A stretch of 64,000 nt of DNA from assembly GCA_015521115.1 (NCBI GenBank), contig WAOT01000008.1, forward strand, positions 1 through 64,000, read 5' to 3'. Origin of the DNA: Desulfurococcales archaeon (GTDB lineage: Archaea > Thermoproteota > Thermoprotei_A > Sulfolobales > Acidilobaceae). The notes beneath the pieces were generated by a model. It saw nothing but the letters and a program-made list of their open reading frames with translations. It made no database searches and was not told where the DNA came from. The position numbers and the translations under genes were made by a program. This document shows positions 1,109-30,582 of the stretch, one piece after another (the first letter of the stretch is position 1; each line of letters begins with the position of its first letter).

Positions 1109-3286
1109 ATGGGTCCTGTTCCCTTAATTTTGATTGTTTTATTGATAATAGTTATTTTAAGATTAAAAAATTTAAGGAGAGGGGCTGGGGGGAGGGGCTA
1201 TGCGTTTGAGGTAAGCGGGCTTAGGTCTGTTATAGCTTATGTTGTTAATAACGTTAAAATCATAATTATCATGTTTATTTTAGTTGTGTTCGTATCATCT
1301 CTGATCATATCGGTGTTTGAGGTAGACTTCAATATTGTTGATGCTTTTGAATGGACTGTTGCCGAGGCCCTCAACATAGAGATCCCCAATCTCCCCGCAC
1401 CATCGCATCCGGCTAGTAGGGCAGTCCTCGTCCTTAACGGGGCAGCCGGTGTTATCATAATAGCCTTAACTATCGGCCTCGTTGTTGATAGGATAATCCA
1501 GATAGGTGAGGCTTACACCCTGGGGCTCGAGACCTCCGTACCGTCCTCTTGGGACGACTTTGCCGTGTTTATAGGCTGGAATGAGACTGTGATTAAGGCG
1601 ATCAACGAGCTCTGGCGTCACTCTATTATGGCTCCAATAAACGTCGCAGTGATCCTACCCTTCGAGAGAATGAATGAGGTCAGGGCGGTAGAGAAGATCC
1701 TCAAGAACACTAAGGCTTCAGTAGGATGCTCTAAATGCCAGTACAGGATAATCACGGATAGGATCGACGATAATAGGACGTTCTACAGGGGTAGGCTGCA
1801 TGATGCGAGAGCTATTGTTATATCCATGGATAAGGATGAAACAACACTACATACACTCCTATCCGTTCAAGGGTACTTTAAGGAGGTGCTGAAAGAAGGG
1901 TTATATGACCCGCGGGCCAGGAAAGCGGTTATTGTGATAGAGGTTTTACAGGATGAAAACGAGTCAGTGTTTAGAGGCGTGGCCAGTGAGCAAGACATTA
2001 TAGATATCCAGGTGATCCTGTCCCGCTCCTACGGTGGGAAACTCCTGGCCCATATGATAACTCAGCCAACGATTATCACCCCGTTGATAGATGCTATGAT
2101 GTATAATGAGGGGGTAGTTGATATCGTCCATATTAAGGTGAACGAGCTAGACAACTATTGCATCCCGTGGTATGGGGACTGCGAGAAAGGGAACATACTG
2201 ATACCCTTACTAATAATCTCCAAAGACGGTGATAAGCTTAAAACCGAGCTAGTTAACCTCAAGGGAAGCGTTAGGGATCTTGCTGGAAGCAACGTTGATA
2301 TTATAGGGCTTTCAACAGGCCTAGAGAGGTTGTCAACTGTCAAGTCCAGGTTGTTTAAGAGCTTCTCGGTTATTGATAGGATAGTCGAGTTGAACGGGCA
2401 AGTGGATCTCCCCACTCACAGGCTGGAGAGGCCCCTCGGCCACATTAATATAATCGGCTTTACTGAGGCTACTGAGAGCCTTATTAAAGAGTTGAAAAGG
2501 ATAAGGAGGTGGAGGTTTAACGATGTCGAGAAGCTAGCTTTTTCAGGCATGAAGTTCGCCTCGAGCAGGACAATTATATTGTCTACGAATAGGGACATCT
2601 TCGAGGAGCTGGATCCCGCGGAGGTGTTTGACGCCCAGCTGATGGACTCGATAATTGTTGTGAAAGGAGACCCCATGAAGCTCCACACACTGAGGAGGAT
2701 AGGCCTGTTGTCGAGTCAGATTATTGTCGTGTCAATGAACTCGGATGATAGGGCGGTGAAAGTTGTTCTAACCTTGAAGGATCAGCTGAGAAGGGTTAGG
2801 GAGGTCATGAAAGAGGCTAAGGTGGGCGAGCCCGGGGAGCCCATAATACTAGCTGAGACCATTTCAGAGAGTGTTGCTGAGAGACTGTTGAGCGCTGAAA
2901 GCGTTGACGGTGCGGTACCAAGTCGGAGCCTTGCGGGCAGGCTGATCGCATATGCGATCCTCGACAAGGCTAGTTTCACTGCCCTCTCAGACCTAATTAC
3001 TGGAACTGAAGGACTCCTTGATATGAGACAGGTCAGCGTTTTGAGCCTCACACAGTTCGACACACCAGCGGCTAGAGAGATACAGGTGGACTGTGATAAG
3101 AGCCCCCCAGAGACTACTCTAGCCAAGATCGTTGAAGCCCTAGCTGAGACAGATCTTGGAATCCCGGTCGCAATATACAACACCAGCGGGACAACGGACA
3201 CAAAATTAGTGATACCGTACTCACCGGGTCAGAGAATATCATGTCATTCACTACTCGTGCTGGCATCAAAAAGCCCCAACCTCTAA
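1109..3286 (+). CDS. Two-membrane-helix channel-like protein with RCK/TrkA-N-like cytoplasmic domains
   Basis: A 725-residue protein. It has a short N-terminal hydrophobic segment (2-18), a strong membrane helix (about 48-70), a loop of about 40 residues, and a second helix (about 108-128). A large soluble part follows, with repeated alternating beta strands and helices (AVILPFERMNEV, AIVISMDKDE, INIIGFTEAT, SIIVVKGDP). The architecture resembles CASTOR/POLLUX-type channels: a pore pair followed by two Rossmann-like RCK domains. The loop between the helices lacks the potassium filter TVGYG and contains EWTVAEALNIEIP instead, so ion selectivity cannot be predicted. The gene stands alone, divergent from VKOR. 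The fold assignment is inferred from topology and strand pattern only; a non-channel membrane sensor is also possible. Confidence 0.5.
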   Translation: MGPVPLILIVLLIIVILRLKNLRRGAGGRGYAFEVSGLRSVIAYVVNNVKIIIIMFILVVFVSSLIISVFEVDFNIVDAFEWTVAEALNIEIPNLPAPSHPASRAVLVLNGAAGVIIIALTIGLVVDRIIQIGEAYTLGLETSVPSSWDDFAVFIGWNETVIKAINELWRHSIMAPINVAVILPFERMNEVRAVEKILKNTKASVGCSKCQYRIITDRIDDNRTFYRGRLHDARAIVISMDKDETTLHTLLSVQGYFKEVLKEGLYDPRARKAVIVIEVLQDENESVFRGVASEQDIIDIQVILSRSYGGKLLAHMITQPTIITPLIDAMMYNEGVVDIVHIKVNELDNYCIPWYGDCEKGNILIPLLIISKDGDKLKTELVNLKGSVRDLAGSNVDIIGLSTGLERLSTVKSRLFKSFSVIDRIVELNGQVDLPTHRLERPLGHINIIGFTEATESLIKELKRIRRWRFNDVEKLAFSGMKFASSRTIILSTNRDIFEELDPAEVFDAQLMDSIIVVKGDPMKLHTLRRIGLLSSQIIVVSMNSDDRAVKVVLTLKDQLRRVREVMKEAKVGEPGEPIILAETISESVAERLLSAESVDGAVPSRSLAGRLIAYAILDKASFTALSDLITGTEGLLDMRQVSVLSLTQFDTPAAREIQVDCDKSPPETTLAKIVEALAETDLGIPVAIYNTSGTTDTKLVIPYSPGQRISCHSLLVLASKSPNL

Positions 3287-3349: not shown

Positions 3350-5749
3350 TTATATTTTTATTTCGCTTGGTGAAGATACCATCTCTTCACAGATGTTTCG
3401 AACCGCGACCTTAGTAAGGCCTCTCTGAAGTAGGTTTATATCCTTTGCTCTCCTCATGACATGCCTATATTTACTGTCGGGTAGGTTCTTGTATGCAAGG
3501 TTTAGATAGTATAGGTCGGTAATAGTATGTAGAGGGATGGGGTGTACGATGAGAGATATGTACAGTCTGGGTCCGAGGGTCTCATCATAGAATATACTGT
3601 TACCAACGTTAGGGCCAGCGAATATGTTATTATATCTCTGCATGACCTCATTCATGAGTATTCTATCGTTATCGTCAGCTAGTATGACGTAGGTCCTTCT
3701 AATTACTCCTTTTCTTTCAATTATATTAAGAATCTCTGTTCTTTCAACGCTTATAGGCCATGTCTGGAGGGCGAGTAGTGCATTGCTAATCTGGTTGTAT
3801 AATTGTTCCTCGCTAATCTTAGTGTATCCTCCTCTTATAGCGTTTAGTAGACCCCCAGTAGTAAACCCCTGTAATGCTTTGTTCCCTCCAGTCTTGTACT
3901 CCTCATAGAGCTTATCTGCACCCTCAGTCGACAATAGTATTCTGAACGCCGACTCGGAATCCCTCTTTATTAAGTCTTTTTCTGTTTCACCAAATATTTT
4001 AGGGTAAAGCAGTCTCATCTCATACTCTAATTCGTTTAGTTTATTTGTCAGTCTCTCTCTTTCTGGGATCAAGCTTTCTTGCTTGTATATGTTAATAGCA
4101 TTTAATATCAGCAGGTAGCGGTTGAGAGACCTTGTTATTTTCTTGTATGCATTCATATGCCCTTTTAGTTCATTGATTACCCGGTGCATCCTTCCCCTAC
4201 ATCTGACGCTAAACGGCCATATATGTCTATCACAGGAATCCTCATAGTATTTTTCAATAGTGTTAATCAAGCTTTTTAGTGCATTGTCTAGAGCGCCTGA
4301 CACTATTTTATTGACATTTTCGACGACCTCGTTAGGATCTTTAGAAGATAGCTTACTCGATTTTGGTATTAGGTTCTTACGGATATTCTCGATTTGACTT
4401 TGGATGTTCTCATGTTGTTCTTGGCTCAGGTTTCTTAGATCTCTTCTTAGTAGTTCACCGGTTCTTCCTAATATAGGCTCTATATTATGGATAACAGCAG
4501 TTTGGACTTGATTTGACATATTTTCAATTATTTCACTTAATAATATTTGTATTTTTTCTTCCTCGGTTCTTAGGGTCTTTGACTCCACAATGGCACCGAC
4601 TGCAAGAGCTATTCTCCGCGGATTATCAGACTGGTATTCCTCAAGTTTTTTAACATGGCCTCCAATATTCTGCTTGAATATCATAACGTCTTCCTCGTCT
4701 GTATACTCTAACTGCTCTTTTACACCATCGATCTCGCTCCTCAGCTTGATATACTTCTCGATATCCTCGATAGGCAGGTAGATCTGGACAGAGTCGAAGG
4801 TTGTGAAGAAGAAGTCCTCCCCCAGAACGCCTGCCACGTTTTGCCCTAGCTGTAGAATGTTAGCCCAGTCTAGTTGGCCTGCTCCCCCTACAGGTATCTT
4901 ATGCACTGTGGTTATGAATCTCACGATCTTATCGTCGAGTGAAGACTGTATTTCTTCAGACATTGCGTCGTTGAAGCCGGCTAGGAAGAAGGCATCATAG
5001 GGTTTTGACTCTTCAGTTGATAATTTACATACCAGGTCTGCGAGTGCCGCATATCCGTTTGCCATATAAATATGGTCATTGTAAGGTGTTGGCTCGTTGG
5101 GAACTATTGCTAACGGGAATACGCTCTTACCTCCTCCAAAAAAGTAGGAGCTTACTAGGCCTTTGATTATATCAAGTACATCTAGGAATATACCACTACC
5201 GGTGCCTCCCCCTAGGGAGAATACGACCCATATTGTCAGGCTCAGCCTCTCACGCGGTAGAGCTCTGGACTCTACATAGTCAGAGATTGATTGTAGGTCA
5301 TTCTTTATCGCGTTCACTACTAGATCCCTGACTCCTGGTACACAGTTCAGTAGGAATCTGGCGTTTACTCTGAAGCGTGCGGCTCCATGGTTTGGAGAGA
5401 TTCCTTTGAGCAGATCTAGTGCGTGCTCATACTCGCTTGGGTAGAAGTCGCACCCTCCACGGGACAAGGCCCTTTGCGGGTTCCTGAGCCAGGGTTCTAT
5501 CTGTGGGTTGTAAAGTACTAGGGTCTCCTCGTTCTTCAACCACCCGTTCCTCAATGCCTGGCCTATCATATCATTGGCTATGTCAATAACTCTGAACTTT
5601 GTTATGACACCCTTCTTATTTCTCAGTTCTCTTGCGAGGAGCCCCGTGATCTGTGTGCCAGCCCCACCGAGCCCGATAATGTATAGGGCGTGGATCCCGG
5701 CCTGTGCCTCTGAGCCTGACTTCGATGAGCTGGAAGCTTCTGAGGACAG
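3350..5749 (-). CDS. Tubulin/FtsZ-superfamily GTPase, large divergent form
   Basis: The frame reads back past the first ATG (5569) to about residue 1 at 5749, giving about 799 residues. The extended N-terminus contains GLGGAGTQ (residues 26-33), the nucleotide-contacting first loop of the tubulin superfamily, and residues 180-186 read GGGTGSG, the tubulin signature. The ATG at 5569 would delete the first motif, so the longer form is preferred. No ATG, GTG or TTG occurs before it; a CTG at 5749 sits six bases after GGGGTGA, so a CTG (or the preceding ATA) start is likely. The C-terminal half is long and helical with coiled-coil character (about 300-600), unlike FtsZ. It is divergent from a vWA gene, a pairing reported by comparative genomics for FtsZ-like families proposed to act in membrane remodelling. 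AT-rich codon use. Confidence 0.8.
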   Translation of the reverse strand: MSSEASSSSKSGSEAQAGIHALYIIGLGGAGTQITGLLARELRNKKGVITKFRVIDIANDMIGQALRNGWLKNEETLVLYNPQIEPWLRNPQRALSRGGCDFYPSEYEHALDLLKGISPNHGAARFRVNARFLLNCVPGVRDLVVNAIKNDLQSISDYVESRALPRERLSLTIWVVFSLGGGTGSGIFLDVLDIIKGLVSSYFFGGGKSVFPLAIVPNEPTPYNDHIYMANGYAALADLVCKLSTEESKPYDAFFLAGFNDAMSEEIQSSLDDKIVRFITTVHKIPVGGAGQLDWANILQLGQNVAGVLGEDFFFTTFDSVQIYLPIEDIEKYIKLRSEIDGVKEQLEYTDEEDVMIFKQNIGGHVKKLEEYQSDNPRRIALAVGAIVESKTLRTEEEKIQILLSEIIENMSNQVQTAVIHNIEPILGRTGELLRRDLRNLSQEQHENIQSQIENIRKNLIPKSSKLSSKDPNEVVENVNKIVSGALDNALKSLINTIEKYYEDSCDRHIWPFSVRCRGRMHRVINELKGHMNAYKKITRSLNRYLLILNAINIYKQESLIPERERLTNKLNELEYEMRLLYPKIFGETEKDLIKRDSESAFRILLSTEGADKLYEEYKTGGNKALQGFTTGGLLNAIRGGYTKISEEQLYNQISNALLALQTWPISVERTEILNIIERKGVIRRTYVILADDNDRILMNEVMQRYNNIFAGPNVGNSIFYDETLGPRLYISLIVHPIPLHTITDLYYLNLAYKNLPDSKYRHVMRRAKDINLLQRGLTKVAVRNICEEMVSSPSEIKI

Positions 5750-5768
5750 TATGAGTCACCCCTGCAAA
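5747..5768 (-). promoter_or_regulatory. Shine-Dalgarno and apparent CTG start of the tubulin-like gene
   Basis: On the minus strand AGGGGTGA is followed by CTCATA and then CTG. GGGGTGA matches the anti-Shine-Dalgarno of crenarchaeal 16S rRNA and the six-base spacing is ideal for the CTG. A stop (TGA, overlapping the Shine-Dalgarno) closes the frame upstream, so no standard start is available before the GLGGAGTQ motif. ATA directly before the CTG is the only alternative nearby. Confidence 0.55.
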
Positions 5769-5876
5769 ATTTTTACTACATCATTTTTGAGGGATAGGCC
5801 TAAACCTATTTATTTCTTGGGCTATTCTCAAGTATATGCAGATAACACGAGTCACCGTGCGTCAAGGTGGGACGCC

Positions 5877-6449
5877 GTGTTTGATGACTGCATGAAAATA
5901 CTGCTCATAGACGTATCTCCAAGCATGTACATGACTGGGGCGCTGGAAACAGTGAAGGAGGCCCTGCAGCTCCTCACAAAAGTGGATGAGGAGGCCTCCG
6001 AGAGATGTCCGGCCGTAAAAGTATATATCTGCGGTTCTGATAATATCGAAGAGGTTCACCCCAGCATTGGCTTGGGGAGCACGGAATGGGAGGACATAGC
6101 CGAATACTTAGAGAATAGAAACGACAAGGTATATAGCAGCATAGGATATGCCCTGAGAGAGCTCATAAAAAGGTACGGCCGTGTCAACATACTAGCTATA
6201 ACCGACGGCGAATGGAACTACCCGAGAAGTCGCCGTCTAAGAAAACTCATATATGAGGAGCTTGCAAGGGCCGACCCGAGCAGTGTTAGAGTGACCATAC
6301 TAGACATCAAACCGCGGGTGAGAACGTCAAATCTGCTGAGTGAACTAGCCGTTAAAAACCCGATGGTGTTCAACATCATCACACACATACTGGATCCCAG
6401 AGGGATAAGCATGTACATAAGCAACTGGATTTGCAGAGATGACTGCTAG
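5877..6449 (+). CDS. von Willebrand factor A-domain protein paired with the tubulin-like gene
   Basis: A protein of about 190 residues starting at GTG 5877, which has AGGTGG six bases upstream; ATG 5892 is the alternative. The open frame extends further upstream, but that part antisenses the N-terminus of the tubulin-like gene and is not credible. The vWA fold shows ILLIDVSPSM near the N-terminus, i.e. the metal-ion-dependent adhesion site D-x-S-x-S, and AITDGEW with the later MIDAS aspartate. There is no signal peptide or membrane segment, so it is cytoplasmic. It is divergent from the tubulin-like GTPase with about 127 bp between starts, and the two probably share a promoter region. Role inferred: a partner or regulator of the filament-forming GTPase. 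Confidence in the fold is high; the function is open. Confidence 0.8.
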   Translation: MFDDCMKILLIDVSPSMYMTGALETVKEALQLLTKVDEEASERCPAVKVYICGSDNIEEVHPSIGLGSTEWEDIAEYLENRNDKVYSSIGYALRELIKRYGRVNILAITDGEWNYPRSRRLRKLIYEELARADPSSVRVTILDIKPRVRTSNLLSELAVKNPMVFNIITHILDPRGISMYISNWICRDDC

Positions 6450-6483: not shown

Positions 6484-7604
6484 CTAATTGTTAGTTGTAG
6501 CCCAGTACAACGGCCTAGCCCCGGGGAGAGGTATGAGGGTTCCGGTCATCCTCCTCTTAGTGAGGTCAATATTAACCGTTCCATGGTGTAGCGATGTGCT
6601 CCATGTATCTCTCCACTCATCCCTACCTATGAACAAGTCAACAGGGATTACCCCAGTTAGTCTTTCAGCTATCCCGCTTTTGATGGGGTCTCCAGTTGCT
6701 ATGTATTCTGTGAGTGCTTGTATTGCGTTGTTGAGGTCATGGTTGTAAGCATCCTTCTCCACATAGTATATCGATGAGAAGATATCTCTGACAAGCCTTA
6801 TGTAGTCATCCTAGGCGGAGTCCCTGTCATTACCTTCCACATATCTTTCATACCACCACCTCGGCACTTCTCGCGTTAGCATGGCGAACTTTTTGTGATC
6901 CACCTGCTGGTAGATGTGTGCCCATATGAGGGTATTCTCTATCCCATGAGCAGGTGGCGCTGTTTAGGCCGAACTCTGGGTATTTTTTCACTATTTGTCT
7001 TATTCTATTATTAATATCTTTTATATTAATTTTATCTATAAATCCAAATTTATGTAATATCCTGGAGTCATAGGCATTTATATCGACACTGTTAACCTCC
7101 AACAATATGAGGGGATCCATAACGGTTTTCTCCCTAGCATGTTTTATTAGACTAGCCCTGTCAGTGTGTGGATGCTTTTTCCGCTTCCTCCAGCAAGTTC
7201 AGGGTGTAGCTTGATATGGTTATACTGTATGAGTCTCCACTGTTGTAATCGACAAGATTGATGTAGAGTGTAGGAAGCGGATACTATCGGTTCGAGCCCT
7301 CTACGGCCCTAGTTGCCTGTTGGATGTATTGGATCACTCCCTCGAACTCAACCACCAGCTCACCCGTGCTTTGATCCACATCGACCTTATCGGGAGTGAG
7401 GACTGTGACACCTGGAATTGTTAGAGTAACAATATTAACCAGATATCCTCCTTGGAGGCCTAGCTCTTTGATCGCCTCCCCACTAACCCTAATCATCAGG
7501 GAGTCTTTAGCGGATATTGTCAATATGGTTAATGGTAATGTAGATACTAAGAATGCGATGATAAGCGCGATTGCATAGACCCGGGTTAGTCGGCCTTTAC
7601 CCAT
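6484..7604 (-). pseudogene. Decayed paralogue of the secreted protein at 8487-10445
   Basis: Three minus-strand fragments (7604-7284, 7120-6848, 6762-6484) align in order with the intact 652-residue neighbour. The first matches residues 1-100, including the signal peptide and the PGVTVLTPDKV block. The second includes ATCSWD. The third matches the DLFIGRDEW region. Reading the gaps in other frames restores the homology: PTLYINLVDYNSG between the first two and WWYERY before the third. Frame changes are therefore near 7288, 7160 and 6915, and an in-frame TAG lies at 6811-6813. Roughly the last 290 residues are missing, and the convergent vWA gene lies just beyond. The promoter palindrome and TATA box are preserved. 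It may be transcribed but cannot make the full protein. Confidence 0.88.
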
Positions 7605-7663
7605 TTAACCCCCCACGGTTGAATGCATTTATACTGAACCTTTAAGGAGACCTTTTATGTGGT

Positions 7664-7680
7664 GCTCACAATTTGTGAGT
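7664..7680. promoter_or_regulatory. Palindromic operator-like site, copy 2
   Basis: GCTCACAATTTGTGAGT is an inverted repeat with eight-base arms around one central base and a single end mismatch. It lies 60 bases upstream of the start of the decayed secreted-protein gene, immediately upstream of its TATA-like CATAAAAGG on the minus strand. The same site at the same relative place precedes the intact paralogue (10501-10517). Placement next to BRE/TATA suggests binding by a dimeric regulator. Confidence 0.65.
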
Positions 7681-7718
7681 AAAACTTATAAGCTCTCGAC
7701 GGTTTGTCTTCGCTCTCC

Positions 7719-8200
7719 TCATAATATTCTAATTATAATAATTATATTTAAAATTATAATTGTATGCATAATCGTGCAGTAAACACATATCGCGCCAGCC
7801 CTATACTCAAGAAACCAGAGATATGGCAAAGCAAAAACCCCACCATATAGAGAACCAACTGAACCCTGAGAGCTAATAGTGTGAAGGCCCCACGGAACGC
7901 CAGGAAAGACACGGCTAAGAGAGCCATGAAATAAACTGGAGCGAGCTCAGAGAAGTGAAAGCCCAAGATCCTAGATCCCTCCACACCATAAACCTTCTGA
8001 CATTCAAACAGGCCCTCTCCCCCAACCGATGGTAGACCCGAGGAACCCGGATACGAGCCGACCCCCCCATCCTCCAATGGAAACCGCGCCTCCTCACCCG
8101 GTATGCAGGCCAGACCCTCCTTATAGGCAAAGTAAGAGCCCATCCCCGCCGCGAGCCCCACAACAGTTAAACCGAGGATAACCACCAAGAGCTTCCGCAT
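7719..8200 (-). pseudogene. VKOR-family gene with a one-base frameshift before the catalytic CxxC
   Basis: The frame from ATG 8200 (GGTGG six bases upstream; an ATG at 8215 also exists) matches the intact VKOR at 404-895 through membrane helix 3, with loop cysteines in GLAC and LFEC and the SELAPVYF serine motif. At the run GGGGTTTTT (minus strand, 7833-7841) the frame shifts, and the ORF ends as a nonsense tail at 7754. Adding one base restores LPYLWFLEY, then ICVYC and the final helix, to a stop at 7719, closely matching the paralogue. The catalytic pair is therefore out of frame. Possible explanations are a recent inactivating deletion, a sequencing error in a homopolymer, or slippage during expression. 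It lies between the intact and decayed copies of the secreted protein. Confidence 0.85.
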
Positions 8201-8486
8201 CACAAGCCACCACATTTGAATAGGGGATCATTGAAGCCTTTAACCACAAATATGTAATCCACATCTCTAACACGAATATAATTCAAGGAAACCCTAACAA
8301 GTCAACTAACAATATATACTCCATAAAACAATGCAGCATCACCTCAAAACCGCCGTGTCCATAGGTGTAACGCCAGAGGGAGAACCAGGAAAACCAAGAT
8401 TACATAGCAATCTTTCCCATATTATTTTTATTTAATAATTTAATATATTTTAACTAAAAAATATAAATATTTAATATTACAGAAAA

Positions 8487-10445
8487 TCATTTATTTTGTT
8501 CTGGGCATGCTGATGGCCCACAGGGTGGTTGGGGAGGTGGGTTTGATGAATAAGCATATTTAACATTTATTTTTATTAGATTATAGAATTGTTCGCCATC
8601 AAACATATACCTTGCTGACGTGTTATAGAAATAGGTCTCTATTTTAACATCCGAAGAGAGGCTTCCTGTTTGTCGTAGCAAGAAGTCAAATGTCGCCGAA
8701 AGAGCGTTGGTCTCTATTTTCACTGTATTAATACTTGATAGTAGTGAATAAGTGAAACCTATTATAAACCCCATCTTTCCCCCTATTGCGCCTAGCATAA
8801 GATCAACTATAGGCTGAAGCACGGGGGGAATATCTATGAGAGAATTATAACCTACTGACACGTTAACCAAGAGGGTATGCGCGCTAATGTCTATTAGGAT
8901 CTCAGGGTGACCCCTGGGCTTCTCTTTATCTTCTATCCACGAATAATAATCTTCTATTAACGAGTTTTTATTGAAGCCTTCAAAGGGATCCGTTATGGCC
9001 TGCGCTGTCTCGTTGACTATATCTTCCACCCCATATATTACGCTGTATACTGGTAATATTGTCGCAATAGGTGTGAGCAGATAGTAGTCGTGTCCGTTGC
9101 ATGTGATATTGTCTGTTATCCATCTTATTATAATCGAGTCTTCACCATATGTCAGAAGAGCACTCCTAATAAGTATGGTTCCAACCGTCCTATCAGAACC
9201 GTTTATGAGCTCTGCGGACAGTAGGATCCTATTTTCTTGTTGAGTATTGTTAATGTTCTCGCTCTGTGTAAGTTGGAATCCAGCAAACATTAGGCCGCTC
9301 TGTATGCTTTGAACCTCCTTTAGGTGGAGTATTACATCTATTAGTAGTTTCTCGCCATCGTCATCACTTAATCTACTATTGTAAACGTAGCGGAAGATGG
9401 GTAGGTCGATCTCCTTAACACCATAGTCTGGAGGGTCATCTTTGGTGTTGTGCCACTGGTCTAGTCCCACGAAAGTGTCCATAGTTACAATACCTACTAG
9501 ATCATTCATTGGATAATCTCCAGGGTACTGGTCGACTATATATGACATTAACGTTCTAACAGCATCGTTGATGTCGCTATAGCTACTCTTGTCCACGTAA
9601 TAGACTGACGAAAAGAGATCTTTTACCAGTCGGTCGTAGTCATCTTCAGCGTCATCGTAATAGTCTACCTGTATATACCTCTCATACCACCACTCTGGAA
9701 TATCCTGTTTCAACATGTTGTACTTGGTATGATTTATTTCCTGGAATATCCCGGTGCCGGTGTAAGGGTATTCGCCATCCCAAGAACATGTTGCGGTTGC
9801 TGGTCTCAGCTCTGGGATTTTATCCATTAACTTTTTTATTTTATTATTTATTAGTTTTATATTATATTCATCAATATAATTAAATTTTTTCATTATTTTA
9901 ATATCTTCTTTATTTAATACTATTTTCTTGACCTCTATGATCTTATATGGATCGTTAAGAGTCTCCTCTTTAGCAGCGTTAATTATATTGAATGTGCTCA
10001 TTCGCGGGTGTTTCTTTACCTCCTCGACGATATTTAATGACAGGGTAGATATAGATATACTATATGATATGCCACTATTGTAGTCAATAAGGTTAATATA
10101 TAATACTGGTACTACATGTCTAAGCTCTGGGTTCATCATGTTTCTGTTTATTTGTTGAGTGTATTTGTCTATGTCTCGGAACTCTATTTGTAGCTCTTTG
10201 GAGTCCTCGTCCACAACGACCTTGTCAGGGGTTAGAACTGTGACACCTGGAATTGATAATGTGACAACATTGACAACATAACCATTATCAAGACCGAGCT
10301 CCCGGATAGCATCACTACTAATCTTAACCCGAAGTGAATCACTCACCGCCGAAACAGTAGATATCGTTATTGTAGACGCTAGGAACGCTAGGATGAGCAT
10401 CAGACTATAGACCCTAAGCAACCTCTCCCTACGCACCCAAGCCAC
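8487..10445 (-). CDS. Secreted cysteine-containing protein of unknown function
   Basis: A 652-residue protein with a clear signal peptide: basic start (VRRER), a hydrophobic core (about 12-30) and a likely cut after SAVS or TVSA. No later membrane anchor is obvious. Four cysteines are seen: one in ATCSWDG (about 219), one in ITCNGH, and two in a proline-rich tail (PPCGPSAC). Even numbers of external cysteines and the neighbouring VKOR genes suggest disulfide-bonded export. Several NxS/T sequons occur. Base composition is notably AT-rich compared with the central part of the window. The decayed paralogue at 6484-7604 conserves the N-terminal domain and the WxxxYxxY region. No known family is recognised; surface enzyme or structural protein are both possible. 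Confidence 0.75.
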   Translation of the reverse strand: MAWVRRERLLRVYSLMLILAFLASTITISTVSAVSDSLRVKISSDAIRELGLDNGYVVNVVTLSIPGVTVLTPDKVVVDEDSKELQIEFRDIDKYTQQINRNMMNPELRHVVPVLYINLIDYNSGISYSISISTLSLNIVEEVKKHPRMSTFNIINAAKEETLNDPYKIIEVKKIVLNKEDIKIMKKFNYIDEYNIKLINNKIKKLMDKIPELRPATATCSWDGEYPYTGTGIFQEINHTKYNMLKQDIPEWWYERYIQVDYYDDAEDDYDRLVKDLFSSVYYVDKSSYSDINDAVRTLMSYIVDQYPGDYPMNDLVGIVTMDTFVGLDQWHNTKDDPPDYGVKEIDLPIFRYVYNSRLSDDDGEKLLIDVILHLKEVQSIQSGLMFAGFQLTQSENINNTQQENRILLSAELINGSDRTVGTILIRSALLTYGEDSIIIRWITDNITCNGHDYYLLTPIATILPVYSVIYGVEDIVNETAQAITDPFEGFNKNSLIEDYYSWIEDKEKPRGHPEILIDISAHTLLVNVSVGYNSLIDIPPVLQPIVDLMLGAIGGKMGFIIGFTYSLLSSINTVKIETNALSATFDFLLRQTGSLSSDVKIETYFYNTSARYMFDGEQFYNLIKINVKYAYSSNPPPQPPCGPSACPEQNK

Positions 10446-18055: not shown

Positions 18056-18802
18056 TTATTCTCCTTCCACAATGTATTTCTTTGGTGCAGCCTTATAGAT
18101 TAGCGCTCCTGTCAGTATTCCGCCGAGTACGCCGCCTCCAACTACTGCCAGGGGGTTGCTTGTGAGTGCCATTGCCCCCATAGCTACCATTACCCCACCT
18201 AGCACTCCTTCGAGTAGGGCAAGCCTCGCCATTACAGGGTCTGTGACTTCTTTTATCGGTTTACCATTCCAGCTGATTAGCCTCCCACAGTGGGGGCATT
18301 TCTTGATTTTTTCTATTGCTCCACAGTGGGGGCATGTTGGGCTTACGAACGGGTATGTTTTACCACATTTTGGACATTTGTATGTTTGAAGTGTTAGGTC
18401 TTCCCCGCAATAGGGACATTTAATGTGCCTACCTGTTAGGGCGTCTTTGAACCGTTGTGTCACACTTTCTGCAGCATTTCTCTGACCCATTACTAGAGTT
18501 ATCATGTTTTTTGCTTTAGCGACATCTATTACTTTCCCCTCACCAGTGTCTACTATTACCTCGTTCCCAGACTTACCCACTATCAGCTCCATTATGGTCT
18601 CACTACTTGCTAGCACTAGGTCGACAGCTAAGGCTGCTGCTGTCTCCGCCTTCGACTTGTCTATACCCGTGAATGCTAGTGGAAAGCCCTCGTCTGAGAC
18701 TATAACGGTGTACTCGATACCATCTATTTTTGATGCAAAGTCTGCTAGTGTTTGTGGGTCGATTGTGTAGGTCTCTGGGGTATCGTTTGTGTTGTCTGGC
18801 AA
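18056..18802 (-). CDS. Roadblock/LC7-like domain fused to zinc ribbons and a membrane hairpin
   Basis: A 248-residue protein in three parts. Residues about 10-115 resemble the Roadblock/LC7 fold (IDGIEYTVIVSDEGFPLAF followed by a long helix and AKNMITLVMG). Next come four CxxC pairs (CPYC, CPKC, CPHC, CPHC), which form two double zinc ribbons. The C-terminus holds two hydrophobic helices rich in glycine (about 195-240), giving a membrane hairpin, and ends in a basic segment. Roadblock domains dimerise and regulate Ras-like GTPases. The membrane part could recruit a complex to the membrane. It is the last gene of a three-gene set, eight bases after the preceding gene. The combination of domains is unusual. 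Confidence 0.75.
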   Translation of the reverse strand: MPDNTNDTPETYTIDPQTLADFASKIDGIEYTVIVSDEGFPLAFTGIDKSKAETAAALAVDLVLASSETIMELIVGKSGNEVIVDTGEGKVIDVAKAKNMITLVMGQRNAAESVTQRFKDALTGRHIKCPYCGEDLTLQTYKCPKCGKTYPFVSPTCPHCGAIEKIKKCPHCGRLISWNGKPIKEVTDPVMARLALLEGVLGGVMVAMGAMALTSNPLAVVGGGVLGGILTGALIYKAAPKKYIVEGE

Positions 18803-18810
18803 TGCACTTC

Positions 18811-19341
18811 CTACCTCACTATCACCTCAATTACTAGTGGCTCGTCTGGAGTCTTTTGTGGGTGTACTTTTACTCTTACCTGGGCGTCAGGTTTTTTCTT
18901 TCTAATCGCCTTTCTGACTATGGCTGCTGCGATGAATGATTCTGGGCTTAGCGTGAATGGTATACCTTTCTTGTGTAATAGCCTAGCTACTGGCTTGAAT
19001 ATACTGTCGTTTATCTTAATAATATACTTGTCGCCAGTAGAGGTTCCGTTTGAAGGTGTTTCCACTTCCACGTTATCGCTTATGCCAAGCATTTTGAACG
19101 CTTCCGGTAGATCCTTGGATAGGTCCTCTATGTTGTGGACTTCGAATCCAATCTCCTCAAGCATCTCCTCGAGGAAGTCCCCTATGTGCTTTATGAGTAG
19201 CTGGGTCATCGCAGCAGCGCCTGCACCTAGAGTCTTGCTGAGTGCGATCTGGTAGCCTGCAACTATAGCATTTAGGAGACCACTCGGGATCTCTACCTTC
19301 TCAGCCAATGTAAACTCTCCCTCCTTATAGCCATCGCTCAT
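18811..19341 (-). CDS. Unknown protein in the Roadblock operon
   Basis: A 176-residue soluble protein. The N-terminal half is helical (LLNAIVAGYQIALSKTLGAGAAAMTQLLIKHIGDFLEEML) and the C-terminal half has strands and a basic helix (AAIVRKAIRKKKPDAQVRVKV). FEVHNIEDL here is similar to FKVHNIEPN in the protein at 17190, in both cases followed by a helix, so the two may share a small domain. It sits between the two Roadblock genes with gaps of 8 and 27 bases and is almost certainly co-transcribed. No family is recognised. Confidence 0.65.
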   Translation of the reverse strand: MSDGYKEGEFTLAEKVEIPSGLLNAIVAGYQIALSKTLGAGAAAMTQLLIKHIGDFLEEMLEEIGFEVHNIEDLSKDLPEAFKMLGISDNVEVETPSNGTSTGDKYIIKINDSIFKPVARLLHKKGIPFTLSPESFIAAAIVRKAIRKKKPDAQVRVKVHPQKTPDEPLVIEVIVR

Positions 19342-19368
19342 ACTCTCATATCACCCCTGGTTAAAATA

Positions 19369-19731
19369 TTAGAGGACATTGGCTATCCTTGGCGCCTGCT
19401 TCTTTAGCTCATACCTCAGCCTCCCTAGGACTGCCTTACTCCTATCGGCTAGCATTACTAGTAAGTTCTCTCCCATGTCATTGACTAAGAGATAGTGACC
19501 CGGATACTCTAACGTTGTTATTTCGGGTTTCCCGATCTCCAGTTCCTGGCCTAGCTGTGTGGTTGAACCATAGACTGCTGTTATCATAGCCGCCAGGGCG
19601 TCCTCGTCAATATTGAGGGTACCTGTCGCGGCCTTCTCAATCACGAAACCCTCTTTACTCACAATGAAAATAGCAACCACACCTGGACTACGAGTCATGT
19701 CTGCAAGTATCCTCTGAACAGGGCTCGACAT
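19369..19731 (-). CDS. Roadblock/LC7 domain protein
   Basis: About 120 residues forming a single Roadblock/LC7 domain: helix (VQRILADMTRS), strands with VVAIFIVSKEGFVIE, a long helix (DEDALAAMITAVYGSTTQLG), strands with HYLLVNDMGENLLVML, and a final helix. ATG 19731 is chosen over 19755 because GGGGTG lies six bases before it. Such proteins (MglB-like) act as dimeric regulators or scaffolds of small GTPases; no Ras-like GTPase gene is next to it. It is the first gene of the operon with the zinc-ribbon Roadblock protein. The fold is confidently assigned; the partner is unknown. Confidence 0.82.
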   Translation of the reverse strand: MSSPVQRILADMTRSPGVVAIFIVSKEGFVIEKAATGTLNIDEDALAAMITAVYGSTTQLGQELEIGKPEITTLEYPGHYLLVNDMGENLLVMLADRSKAVLGRLRYELKKQAPRIANVL

Positions 19732-19888
19732 ATCTAACACCCCTCTGCTGTGCATTACAATGTAGAGGTGCCCTACCTAATTAATATCTTTAGGCCCAGT
19801 ATAACTACAAGGAGACACTCATATAAAGGATAAAAAGGCTTAACAGGCAAAATCTATAACTAACAAGCTGTCCCCTTCTTATTCGAGG

Positions 19889-22804
19889 TCAACCTTTCGT
19901 CACACCTATCGGCCTGAGCCTTGCCACGAGCCTCCCTATTCCTACCTCGTGTGCCACCTTCGCTACCCTGTCGACGTCCTTGTACGCTTCTGGCATCTCC
20001 TCTACTACTGTCCTCTTGTTGCTCGCCCTCAGGTATATGCCCTTGACCTCCAGCTCCCTCACCACCTCGTGGTACCTCTTTGTCCTCTTCGCCTTCGCCC
20101 TGCTCATCCACCTTCCCGCTCCGTGGGGGGCTGTGTACCAGCTCTTCCATCCCTCCCTTGTGCCTATGAGTACGTAGCTGGCTGTGCCCATGCTTCCGGG
20201 GATTAGGACTGGCTGTCCGACGCTCTGGTAGGCCTTGGGGATCTCTGGGTGTCCTGGTGGGAAGGCCCTTGTCGCGCCCTTCCTGTGTACTATTAGCTTC
20301 ATCCTCTTCCCGTCGACGGTGTGCTCCTCCAGCTTGGCTATGTTGTGGGCCACGTCGTACACTATCTTCATGCCCAGTATGTCGGGATCCCTGTGGAACA
20401 CGGCCTTGAAGCTCTCCCGTGTCCAGTGTGTTATGAGCTGCCTGTTCGTCCAGGCGAAGTTTGCCGCCGCCGCCATGGCCCTCACATAGTCCTGGGCCTC
20501 GGGCGTGTTGAAGGGGACGCTCGCAAGCTCCCTGTCCGGGGGTATCGTGCCGTACTTCCTCATCGCCCTCTCCATGATCTGTAGGTAGTCACTAGCGACC
20601 TGGTGGCCTAGGCCCCTGCTCCCCGTATGTATCATTACGGTGACCTGGCCCTCGAAGAGGCCTAGGGCCTTCGCGAGCTGCTCATCATATACCCTATCTA
20701 CAACCTGAACCTCGAGGAAGTGGTTACCACTCCCCAGAGTGCCAAGCTGGGCCCTACCCCTCTCCTTAGCCCTCCTACTAACCTTACTAGCATCGGCAAG
20801 ACTCCAGCTCCCACGCTCCTCCAAGTACTCGGGATCCTCGCTCCACCCGTAACCCTTACTGACAGCCCACATAACACCCTCATTAAGAACCCTGTCCAGC
20901 TCATCAAGGCTGAGCCTCAACTTACCAGTACTCCCCAGACCGCTCGGGACATTGTAGTATAGTGTGTCAACAAGCTCCTTAATCCTGGGCCTGACCTCCT
21001 TCTCCGTGAGGTCTGTCCTGATTAGCCTTACTCCGCAGTTGTGCACTACCACGCCGTTGGCGAGGAAGTTGTGGCCCTCGTGGTGGACGCCGACGTCGTA
21101 GAACTCCCTGTACTCGGGCTCGTATAGCTCGACCCTCACTACCTTCTCTGCTACAAAGCCAGTATCTCCTACAGCCCTCTCCCTGACATACTCCTGGTAG
21201 TCGGGGAACTCCCTAGGAGGCCTAGCCTCCTCTACCCCGTTGTAGACTGCTCTCTCAACGAACCTCCTGTTAACAAGTGTAGCGACGGCTGCGTGGGCTT
21301 TGCTTATGCTACCGGTCTCGGTGTAGACCTTCCTGGCGGTCTCTTCGGCCTGACGCCTCGCTTTCTTTACCGCCTCCTTTAGCTTGAGGTAGCCAAGTAC
21401 TCTTAGGCCCTCTACCTTCTTCTCCGTTGAGACTTCGTAGCCTATCCTTGCCAGGAAGTTCCTGATGTTCTCCTCTCCTACTATTGAGAGCCTCAGAGTT
21501 ATGGTGTCTTGTCTTGCCGATTCAACCTCGTATATGACAGTGTCTCTTATCCCAAACTCTCTAAGGAGGCCGGCGATCTCCTCCATGAACTCTTTCAGGC
21601 TATCGACTAGCTCCCTCCTCTTTGACTGCGTGAGGCTTATGGGTAGCGGTGTCTTGCCCTTCACTATGGGCTTGCTCCCGTCCGCGCCGAAGAGGCCGGC
21701 GAGGAAGTTCCTCTTCACCCATAGTGGGGCCTCTTTCACCCAGGCTGGAACCGTGTAGCGGGTCTCGGCCTTCCTACCCTCGGGCATGCCTAGCTTCTTC
21801 ATGAGCAGGGCGAAGCTCCTGCTCGATACCCTTAGCTCGGCGCTCTCTGACTCTCCCGCGTATTCTCCTGTTGCTGTCGTTATCCTGTAGCTCCTCCTTC
21901 TCTCGTAGAGCTCCGCCTTTATCCCTAGCTTCTCGAGATCCCTCTTCAGCTCTTCGAGATCCTCCTTTCTACCATAGAATGAGAGGGTTAACCTCCCAGA
22001 CATTAGGCCTAGGTGGCCGTCTCCTAGTGCATATCCCAGGATCCTGGCCAGCAGCCCGAGCCTCGTGTCGTCCCATTTCAGTGGTAGTAGCCGCTTTTCC
22101 TTTAGGAACTTGACCGTCTGGGGATCCGCATCCTCGAAGTCCTCCTCTCCCAGTATGATTCCCTGTCTCTCCTCGTACTCCACGCCCTCAAAGGGGTAGA
22201 CTACTACCATGTCGCCCGGTTTTATCTCATCCATCCTCTTGTACCCGCCATTGACCGTTAAGACTGGATGATCCGTGCTCCCCTCGATTACCCTGCCTGT
22301 CTCCGTTACGAGTCTAACGGCCTTCTCGTCTGGTTCCAGCCTCCTGACGGCCACGAACATGACCTTAGTGCTCTCCTCGCCGCCTCCCGTGTAGACCTTT
22401 AAGCTGCTCTTATCTGCGACCCCGGGTAGATCCTTGATCTTAACCTTGAACCCCAGATCCGTCAGGATCTCAGTGTCGGGGGCGAGGCAGTTGATGTCGT
22501 AGCCGACGCCTCCAGGGCTTATTACGCCGTTCTCTTCTATGCTCATTGCTGCCACTCCGCCTATTGGGAAGCCGTAGCCTTGGTGTCCGTCTGGCATTAC
22601 GAGGCTGTACTTTTGTATTCCTTGTAGGCATGCGACGTTTGCTGCCTGTACGAGTGTTAGGTCTTGTTTCATCTTCTCGATCAGGAAGTCGTCAGCGTAT
22701 ATTATGCTGGGGACTTTCATGCATGGTTTCGCCCCTTTCGGGATCATCCACACGTTCTTGTCTACCCTCCTTAACGGTATGTCCATTCCTGTACCCCTAG
22801 CCAT
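19889..22804 (-). CDS. rtcB: RtcB tRNA-splicing RNA ligase with intein
   Basis: The 971-residue precursor contains an RtcB extein of 487 residues interrupted by a 484-residue intein. RtcB joins RNA ends with 2',3'-cyclic phosphate and 5'-OH, using GTP and Mn2+, and seals tRNA exons in archaea. The N-extein ends in GGVGYDIN and the C-extein starts CGVRLIRTDL; in RtcB this Asp and Cys bind metal. Further RtcB signatures are HTGSRGLGHQ and APHGAGRWMSR, the latter with the guanylylated histidine. Splicing is needed for activity because the metal-site Cys is the +1 residue. An endonuclease subunit that could cut its substrates is at 61832-62344. The gene stands alone, divergent from argS. Confidence 0.96.
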   Translation of the reverse strand: MARGTGMDIPLRRVDKNVWMIPKGAKPCMKVPSIIYADDFLIEKMKQDLTLVQAANVACLQGIQKYSLVMPDGHQGYGFPIGGVAAMSIEENGVISPGGVGYDINCLAPDTEILTDLGFKVKIKDLPGVADKSSLKVYTGGGEESTKVMFVAVRRLEPDEKAVRLVTETGRVIEGSTDHPVLTVNGGYKRMDEIKPGDMVVVYPFEGVEYEERQGIILGEEDFEDADPQTVKFLKEKRLLPLKWDDTRLGLLARILGYALGDGHLGLMSGRLTLSFYGRKEDLEELKRDLEKLGIKAELYERRRSYRITTATGEYAGESESAELRVSSRSFALLMKKLGMPEGRKAETRYTVPAWVKEAPLWVKRNFLAGLFGADGSKPIVKGKTPLPISLTQSKRRELVDSLKEFMEEIAGLLREFGIRDTVIYEVESARQDTITLRLSIVGEENIRNFLARIGYEVSTEKKVEGLRVLGYLKLKEAVKKARRQAEETARKVYTETGSISKAHAAVATLVNRRFVERAVYNGVEEARPPREFPDYQEYVRERAVGDTGFVAEKVVRVELYEPEYREFYDVGVHHEGHNFLANGVVVHNCGVRLIRTDLTEKEVRPRIKELVDTLYYNVPSGLGSTGKLRLSLDELDRVLNEGVMWAVSKGYGWSEDPEYLEERGSWSLADASKVSRRAKERGRAQLGTLGSGNHFLEVQVVDRVYDEQLAKALGLFEGQVTVMIHTGSRGLGHQVASDYLQIMERAMRKYGTIPPDRELASVPFNTPEAQDYVRAMAAAANFAWTNRQLITHWTRESFKAVFHRDPDILGMKIVYDVAHNIAKLEEHTVDGKRMKLIVHRKGATRAFPPGHPEIPKAYQSVGQPVLIPGSMGTASYVLIGTREGWKSWYTAPHGAGRWMSRAKAKRTKRYHEVVRELEVKGIYLRASNKRTVVEEMPEAYKDVDRVAKVAHEVGIGRLVARLRPIGVTKG
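21038..22489 (-). mobile_element. RtcB intein with LAGLIDADG homing endonuclease
   Basis: The intein runs from Cys106 of the precursor (CLAPDTEIL) to the terminal HN (residue 589) and is followed by Cys. Block A is CLAPDTEILTD, block B holds EGSTDHPVLTV, and the end reads NGVVVHN, as expected for a splicing-competent class 1 intein. Two LAGLIDADG-like helices are seen: ILGYALGDGHLG and FLAGLFGADGS, each with an acidic residue, so the endonuclease may be active. The insertion point, GYDIN before CGV, is the same type of site used by RtcB inteins in Pyrococcus and other archaea. Its target is the conserved metal-binding codon region. Confidence 0.95.
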
Positions 22805-28520: not shown

Positions 28521-29354
28521 ATGGTTGTAGACATAATCAAGAAGATATTCGGCAGGGGAGCCCAGGGGAGGTGGACTGAGTGGGGTGACGCCCCAGTTGA
28601 GGTGGGCGTCGATGAGACCCCGCCTCTGGGGGCACCGGACTATGATGACATAGTTTTAAAGCTCCAGTACACTAAGGACGAGCTAAGCATGCTAAAACTC
28701 ATGATAGGGGAGGAGCTAAGCAAACTCGTAGGAGAGATAAGGAAGGCGCAGCATAAAGGAGACATAAACACTGCCGAAATACTGGCAGCCGACTACGCCC
28801 TTAAGAGGAAGGTTCTACACGGGATAACAGTCCTCGAGAAGATGCTCCAGGTCGTGATAACAAGGGTGAAGACGGCCAAGCAGATGGACACCGTGAGGAA
28901 GCTGACCTCAGGGATATACCCGTATATCCAGAGCCTCACCGAGTACCTGGCGTCCATGAGCCCGGAGGTCGCCGGTAAGCTGATGAGCACAAGGGACGCA
29001 CTAGAGACTCTGTATAGGCAGACGCAGATCATGGGGGAGACAATGCCCAAGAACTTCAGGGTGTCAGAGATCGACCCAGAAGTTAAGGAGATACTGAATG
29101 AGACGTTCAGGGAGGCCACTGAAGAGGTAAGAGAGCTAGCCCCTGAGGAGCCAAAAGTCATTGACTATGAGGAGCTGGAGGAGAAGCTGCTAAACTATAT
29201 CAAGACGCACAATGGGGTAGTGAAGCTGAAGGAGGCAAGCAAGGAGCTAGGCGTTCCGCCAAAAGTGATCAAGGAGGCCCTCTACAGGCTGGCGAGGAAG
29301 GGAGTCATAAACCTCACCAAGACAGGCAGACAGCCGCAGGGTTCAACGGCCTAG
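28521..29354 (+). CDS. cdvB: ESCRT-III-like cell division protein CdvB
   Basis: A 277-residue protein with a Snf7/ESCRT-III core (about residues 45-185), mainly long amphipathic helices (DELSMLKLMIGEELSKLVGEIRKAQHKGD, LKRKVLHGITVLEKMLQ), a linker, and a C-terminal winged-helix-like domain (about 213-270: LLNYIKTHNGVVKLKEASKELGVPP..). The winged helix is characteristic of crenarchaeal CdvB, which uses it to bind CdvA. CdvB polymers constrict the membrane in division. cdvC follows after 46 bp. No cdvA precedes it in this window; the 5S rRNA gene stands there on the other strand. An in-frame stop lies just before ATG 28521, which fixes the maximum length. Confidence 0.93.
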   Translation: MVVDIIKKIFGRGAQGRWTEWGDAPVEVGVDETPPLGAPDYDDIVLKLQYTKDELSMLKLMIGEELSKLVGEIRKAQHKGDINTAEILAADYALKRKVLHGITVLEKMLQVVITRVKTAKQMDTVRKLTSGIYPYIQSLTEYLASMSPEVAGKLMSTRDALETLYRQTQIMGETMPKNFRVSEIDPEVKEILNETFREATEEVRELAPEEPKVIDYEELEEKLLNYIKTHNGVVKLKEASKELGVPPKVIKEALYRLARKGVINLTKTGRQPQGSTA

Positions 29355-29400: not shown

Positions 29401-30582
29401 GTGCCTACATACGGTCTCCAGACACTCGACAAGATGGTTAGGAACCACATAAGGGCCTACTGGCAGGCTAGGAAGAATGGAGACATGGACTCAGCGTATG
29501 AGAGCCTCAAAAAGGCCGTCAGCATACTGGAGGACATTGTACGCTTCTACAGGGACATACCCCTCATAAAGACCTACAAGGAGGCCCTCATAAAGTACAG
29601 GAAGCACTTGAGGGATCTCGAGAGGAGGATGGAAGCCCCCCTCCAGGCGGGTGACGGTGAAGACACTTACAGGGTCGAGCTGAGGAAGAACCCTCCCGTC
29701 AGGGGTGAGCTGGAGAAGGACGACTCAGACCTCCCAGACTTCGTGGAGAAGGGTGCCCCCGCAAACATAACTTTCGACGACATAGCAGGGCTTGAAGAGG
29801 CTAAGGAGGCAATTAAGGAGGCTATAGTGTACCCCATCAAGCACCCGGATCTCTTCCCCCTGGGATGGCCGAGGGGCATACTACTATACGGGCCCCCCGG
29901 GACAGGAAAAACAATGCTCGCCGCCGCGGTAGCCAACATGGTTGAAGCAGAATTCCTCTACGTAGACGCTGCCGGTATAATGAGTAAGTGGCTGGGAGAG
30001 GGGGAGAAGAACGTTAAGAAGCTCTTCACATACGCCAGGAAGAAGGCCAAGGAGGGCACACCAGTAATAATATTCATCGACGAGATAGACGCCCTACTAG
30101 GAGTGCACAGCAGCGAGGTCGGAGGAGAGGTTAGAGTAAGGAACCAGTTCCTCAAAGAGATGGACGGGATCCAGGATAAGGGCAGCAACCTACACGTATA
30201 CGTGATCGGCGCGACGAACAAGCCGTGGGTGCTGGACAAGCCATTCATAAGGAGGTTCCAGAAGAGGATCTACGTCCCACTCCCAGACAAGGAGGCAAGA
30301 CTACAACTACTCAAGATGCTCACCTCAAAGATCCAGCTAGCCCCGGACGTAGACCTCGAGAAACTGGCGGATAAGCTCGAGGGCTATAGTGCCAGCGACA
30401 TTAAAGACGTTGTAACGGACGCCCACCTCATAACCCTAAGAGAGTACTTCAAAACGGGCAAGGGGCCAAGGCCAGTCAGTATGAGGGACTTCATGAAAGT
30501 GCTGGAGAGGAGGAAGCCGAGCGTGGACAAGGCAATGCTGAAGGCATATGAGGAGTGGGCTAAGAGGCATGGAGCCCTCTAA
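29401..30582 (+). CDS. cdvC: Vps4-like AAA ATPase CdvC
   Basis: A 393-residue protein. An N-terminal MIT domain (about 1-80, helical with YWQARKNGDMDSAYESLKKAV) is followed by a linker and an AAA domain with Walker A GPPGTGKT, Walker B IIFIDEIDAL and the arginine-finger region FIRRFQKR. It disassembles ESCRT-III polymers at the division site. GTG start at 29401, 46 bp downstream of cdvB; co-transcribed. The Vps4 beta-domain insertion is not obvious, as is usual in archaea. Followed closely by a small acidic protein. Confidence 0.95.
   Translation: MPTYGLQTLDKMVRNHIRAYWQARKNGDMDSAYESLKKAVSILEDIVRFYRDIPLIKTYKEALIKYRKHLRDLERRMEAPLQAGDGEDTYRVELRKNPPVRGELEKDDSDLPDFVEKGAPANITFDDIAGLEEAKEAIKEAIVYPIKHPDLFPLGWPRGILLYGPPGTGKTMLAAAVANMVEAEFLYVDAAGIMSKWLGEGEKNVKKLFTYARKKAKEGTPVIIFIDEIDALLGVHSSEVGGEVRVRNQFLKEMDGIQDKGSNLHVYVIGATNKPWVLDKPFIRRFQKRIYVPLPDKEARLQLLKMLTSKIQLAPDVDLEKLADKLEGYSASDIKDVVTDAHLITLREYFKTGKGPRPVSMRDFMKVLERRKPSVDKAMLKAYEEWAKRHGAL

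Follow-up and report, generated by a model that had tools for sequence, protein, structure and literature searches.

FtsZl1 was described in 2010 by Makarova and Koonin (PMC2875224), who linked this family to vWA proteins, counted it among those tubulin-superfamily families whose structure has diverged most, and predicted that the FtsZl1-vWA system remodels membranes. Kaur et al. (2020, PMC7159879) have since placed operons of tubulin and vWA genes in proposed biological-conflict systems, in which coiled-coil tubulins are found with DO-GTPases. The occurrence of FtsZl1 alongside ESCRT division has also been noted for Sulfolobales (PMC2875224; PMC9723716), and the family, the association with vWA and the occurrence in Sulfolobales that divide by ESCRT are all published; among open-licence papers we found no experimental work on FtsZl1. 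Here we analyse the first 64,000 nucleotides of contig WAOT01000008.1 from a Desulfurococcales archaeon (assembly GCA_015521115.1; hereafter the window), in which FtsZl1 is found in a soluble form made of two genes only, a variant of the known system that is little described.

The tubulin-family open frame of the window spans 3350..5755 on the minus strand and runs for 801 codons without a stop. Its residues 26-339 match the Pfam family Tubulin_2 (PF13809) with an E-value of 4.8e-25 and 89 bits against a cut-off of 27, over positions 2-349 of the 356 positions of the Pfam model. This is the best Tubulin_2 score in the whole order, and the gene is the sole Tubulin_2 gene in its own, nearly complete genome; the protein belongs to the FtsZl1 family of Makarova and Koonin (2010). 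Both nucleotide loops are intact: the T1-type loop GLGGAGTQ (5651..5674, minus strand), where G28 and G31 are invariant in an alignment of relatives (A1), and the T4-type loop GGGTGSG (5192..5212, minus strand), where G180-G182, G184 and S185 are invariant in A1. No ATG, GTG or TTG is found in frame upstream of the GLGGAGTQ loop, and the ATG-started ORF (from 5569, 739 aa) leaves this loop out. The likeliest start would be a CTG (5749) that follows a Shine-Dalgarno-like GGGGTGA at a distance of six bases; this would set the gene at 3350..5749 (minus strand) and the protein at about 799 aa, although a sequencing frameshift near the start might also account for the missing codon.

An AlphaFold model of the tubulin-like protein was made with five distant relatives in the alignment. 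The GTPase core was modelled with useful confidence, the blocks between residues 21 and 220 being mostly at pLDDT 65-89, and all 50 PDB matches listed by Foldseek belong to FtsZ, CetZ or tubulin, the best with E 1.1e-4; a sequence profile from 13 relatives likewise finds FtsZ, CetZ and tubulin chains. The GTPase domain is predicted to have the FtsZ/tubulin fold, like that of FtsZ, CetZ and TubZ, from which the protein differs by having no PF00091 match over the cut-off and by a long coiled coil in its C-terminal half. In the model this coiled coil (residues ~377-586; 3992..4621, minus strand) is a near-continuous helix of about 210 residues with pLDDT mostly 35-66, followed by an alpha/beta C-terminal region (residues 668-754) of low confidence. 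Thus the initial annotation, which had read the letters of the window as a tubulin-superfamily protein with both loops and a long coiled C-terminal half, is borne out, and the predicted structure that it proposed as a check agrees with it. The ZorA and JetC matches reported by PADLOC lie within the coiled coil and were set aside; none of its models identifies the tubulin-vWA pair.

On the plus strand, an ORF called at 5574..6449 (291 aa) runs antisense over the tubulin gene for about its first fifth. Because the vWA domain begins at MKILLIDVSPSM, the real vWA gene is likely 5892..6449 (plus strand), starting at ATG 5892 with MKILLIDVSPSM and encoding a stand-alone protein of 185 aa rather than 291. 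The divergent vWA neighbour that had been announced with intact DxSxS and TDG motifs is there as described, and only its extent has to be shortened. Since the Pfam VWA_2 match is weak (E 0.0069, below the cut-off), an HMM profile was built, with the window protein left out, from vWA domains at further loci of the order. With this profile the window protein obtains 37.9 bits, an E-value of 8e-11 in a set of 850 sequences, and shuffles of the protein reach at best 5.2 bits among the 270 listed of 300. Across six aligned vWA sequences that neighbour FtsZl1 genes (A6), the residues D7, S9 and S11 of the MIDAS motif DVSPS (DxSxS; 5910..5924, plus strand) and D105 of the acidic loop TDG (6201..6209, plus strand) are invariant, while the MIDAS Thr position appears to be Ser in the window protein (VYSSIGYAL; profile alignment). 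Hydropathy indicates no transmembrane segment in the vWA protein or in the tubulin. The structure prediction for the vWA protein is of low confidence (pLDDT 50), and the KaiC-like Foldseek matches drawn from it, none of them convincing, were dropped. A direct search of 214 genomes of the order found no relatives of the window vWA protein.

The two genes are divergent with about 142 bp between them (5750..5891), an AT-rich, TATTTATT-like stretch that is common to both and is presumed to be the promoter region; being short and common to both genes, it suggests that tubulin and vWA protein are co-regulated. The pair lies in a stretch of 39-49% GC, the rest of the window being mostly near 55%. A gene at 1109-3286 for a 725-aa channel-like protein with a TrkA-N/RCK region converges on the tubulin gene. 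In addition, two genes are duplicated in the window (6550-10445 and 404-895), one for a secreted protein (652 aa, 8487-10445) and one for VKOR. The second secreted-protein copy (6550-7598) is broken, matches only residues 6-352 and ends beside the vWA gene, and the VKOR copy at 7754-8215 appears frameshifted; these duplicated copies may mark a point of rearrangement or insertion. Further along the window are two roadblock/LC7 genes close together (18056-19755), one at 18056-18802 with zinc ribbons and one at 19369-19755, and a 971-aa ORF (19889-22804) whose N-terminus, as read by eye, resembles RtcB RNA ligase and runs into an intein-like sequence (CLAPDTEILTD).

The distribution of FtsZl1 is sporadic. 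Within the order, 15 of 214 genomes carry Tubulin_2; in the phylum sample the count is 35 of 398, which takes in some short FtsZ-like matches. Identity of the window tubulin to the relatives in A1 is 15-22% and its best identity is 28%, to a Methanoregula protein, so that it has no close relative among those compared (15-28% identity). One scan of genome contigs gave distant relatives only, in methanogens, a planctomycete, a Chloroflexia MAG and WOR-3. Weak matches of the A1 profile in other genomes (E 6e-8 to 1e-3) fall mostly on coiled-coil positions and were set aside as noise. A tree of 39 GTPase domains grouped the window tubulin with those of three other loci, L024, L031 and L033 (support 95/91, with long-branch warnings), a grouping that we dropped as it was lost without L024 and the long bacterial branches; moreover, the T4 loop is altered to GGGFGSG in these three tubulins, and the window protein keeps the full GGGTGSG. 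At a further locus (L027, 8616-12960, genome G190), the FtsZl1 gene is split, and between its two parts lies, on the opposite strand, a gene whose family (c41) has two copies; this arrangement resembles the transposon-disrupted S. solfataricus SSO1376 reported in PMC2875224.

A vWA gene adjoins the tubulin gene in 4 of the 17 FtsZl1 loci of the order, the window included. The vWA neighbour is divergent at L031 (profile E 1.4e-4) and lies tail to tail at L033, from the same genus as the window (VWA_CoxE E 1e-5, just under the cut-off). At L024 the divergent vWA neighbour is a candidate recognised solely from its motifs (DNSGS, GNTDVGPAL, LSDF), with no support from Pfam or from the vWA profile. 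The gene downstream of the L024 tubulin is DO-GTPase2-like (E 1.2e-4, under the cut-off). Furthermore, a vWA gene lies directly upstream of FtsZl1 at L059 (VWA E 6e-22) and, in Chloroflexia, at L112 (VWA_2 E 1.9e-9). About 0.05 such adjacencies would be expected by chance among the 17 loci, given 53 vWA matches in 21 genomes (~2.5 per genome) and an assumed ~1600 genes per genome, an estimate that serves as a rough guide as the loci are relatives of one another and L024 was called by eye. Proteins of family c32 near L019 and L020, tried as vWA candidates, carry no MIDAS motif and look transposase-like by eye.

Most sampled Thermoproteota FtsZl1 loci are of another kind, a membrane-protein cassette in which no vWA gene was found, and searching the phylum sample with the tubulins that have a vWA partner brought up no additional ones of this type. 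The cassette consists of a protein of ~315 aa with an N-terminal hydrophobic segment and one further TM segment, FtsZl1, a protein of ~340-470 aa and a protein of ~800 aa, the latter coiled-coil and with about ten hydrophobic segments in the one member examined. The ~340-470 aa partner (c3; L018 13476-14507, L062 12341-13747 and 13 others) looks like a degenerate second tubulin: a profile-profile comparison gives E 3.6e-5 and a probability of 71%, aligned over the T4 loop with GGGTGSG lost, and PF00091 matches one member weakly (E 0.01). The vWA link on which the initial annotation had relied thus holds in the literature and beside FtsZl1 relatives at other loci, which was the second check it had named, but the pairing is not general in the phylum.

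Compared with the described FtsZl1 family, the window protein has the same architecture, an N-terminal tubulin domain with both loops followed by a coiled coil and a C-terminal domain, and likewise a vWA gene nearby and a coexisting second division system. Unlike FtsZl1 operons, the window has two genes only, and its neighbours (the RCK/TrkA-N channel-like gene and the degenerate secreted-protein copies) include no kinase, P-loop GTPase, OmpA or membrane protein of the cassette. The window and the cassettes of the TACK archaea use the same Tubulin_2 family in the same phylum, but in the cassettes, where no vWA gene was found, the partners are a single-pass protein, what is likely a degenerate second tubulin, and a coiled-coil protein with several membrane passes; the window has a vWA gene and none of these three. 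Regarding the conflict systems of Kaur et al., the likeness lies in a coiled-coil tubulin and a vWA protein in one locus with an accessory distribution, and the DO-GTPase2-like gene of L024 recalls their tubulin, vWA and DO-GTPase systems. In contrast to these, DO-GTPase2 (PF19993) is absent from the window's genome, and beside the window pair no FNIII component was seen and Pfam scans of the neighbours named no GAP1.

The window also carries division genes, outside the module: cdvB (28521-29354, plus strand; CHMP1B E 5e-5, CdvB structure 9s9j E 7e-4) and cdvC/vps4 (29401-30582, plus strand), with AAA and Vps4_C domains. No canonical FtsZ is found in the genome, where the best PF00091 score is 14.1 bits against a cut-off of 33. 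Division via Cdv is to be expected from what is established for Crenarchaeota (PMC5840170), and the Cdv proteins most likely carry out division in the source archaeon. As the genome has CdvB and CdvC and lacks a canonical FtsZ, a role of FtsZl1 other than division is reasonable, as the initial annotation had already argued from the coexistence with an ESCRT-III system, and the gene very probably encodes something other than the division tubulin.

We propose, with a probability of roughly 0.55, that the pair is a minimal, soluble two-gene FtsZl1-vWA system of accessory nature, in which an assembly switched by GTP works together with a vWA adaptor that depends on a metal ion. GTP is probably bound by the N-terminal tubulin-type domain, which would then self-assemble, possibly into polymers, or switch state, while the 210-residue coiled coil and the C-terminal domain may act as a stalk and a partner-binding end. 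The Mg2+ of the vWA MIDAS probably binds an acidic residue, either on the GTPase, in which case the two proteins would interact physically, or on a target, and the vWA protein could serve as an adaptor or a release factor. Both would be expressed together from the common intergenic region, and the module would be dispensable for division.

What such an assembly might be for divides the readings, an assembly triggered by threat or stress, as in a conflict system, being somewhat more likely than constitutive membrane remodelling. The patchy distribution and the strong divergence even within a genus favour a conflict role, as do the low-GC stretch abutting a truncated gene copy and the DO-GTPase2-like gene of L024; the lack of DO-GTPase2 in the window's genome and of a PADLOC model for the pair weakens it. 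Taken further, this leads to the tentative idea that Cdv archaea without FtsZ keep a soluble immune or stress device in which the tubulin would assemble on GTP and the vWA protein would gate it, a stripped-down relative of bacterial tubulin-vWA-GTPase conflict systems. The initial annotation had leaned on the membrane-remodelling proposal, which was indeed put forward for FtsZl1 in 2010 (PMC2875224), as a prediction only, and has since been joined by the conflict view of PMC7159879. In that scheme GTP-driven filaments would shape membranes or form vesicles and the vWA protein would connect them to membrane or surface proteins, in keeping with the single-pass and roughly 10-segment membrane proteins that neighbour most TACK relatives. 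We consider it rather doubtful for the window, where neither protein has a transmembrane segment by hydropathy and the tubulin gene lacks the cassette membrane partners c1 and c2 as neighbours; sporadic occurrence also fits a core membrane function poorly.

Two further explanations start from the surroundings of the pair. TubZ and RepX are plasmid tubulins, and the low-GC stretch beside broken duplicated genes, together with a weak match of the FtsZl1 family profile to RepX (4ei7, E 4e-4), could point to a DNA-partitioning tubulin of this type on a mobile element. This is very improbable: 72,556 plasmid records, 50,697 phage records and a pattern scan of IMG/VR contain no relatives, no DNA-binding partner gene was found beside the tubulin, and the protein, of the Tubulin_2 rather than the TubZ family, combines a long coiled coil with a neighbouring vWA gene. 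The adjoining second copies of the secreted-protein and VKOR genes, which are truncated or frameshifted, and the missing standard start codon, which could mean damage or a sequence error, might alternatively indicate a decaying gene, a pseudogene in the making. Decay seems improbable for an open frame of 801 codons that keeps both nucleotide loops and the best Tubulin_2 score of its order, that has a plausible CTG start with a Shine-Dalgarno-like sequence and whose vWA partner is intact. The accessory two-gene system, GTP-switched and vWA-assisted, is thus the reading that we prefer.

A cell that lacks FtsZ and keeps FtsZl1 is a clean place to ask what such tubulins do beyond division. Moreover, two soluble gene products are far easier to study than a membrane cassette of many genes, and work on them could tell whether tubulin-vWA pairs belong to the cytoskeleton or to prokaryotic immunity.
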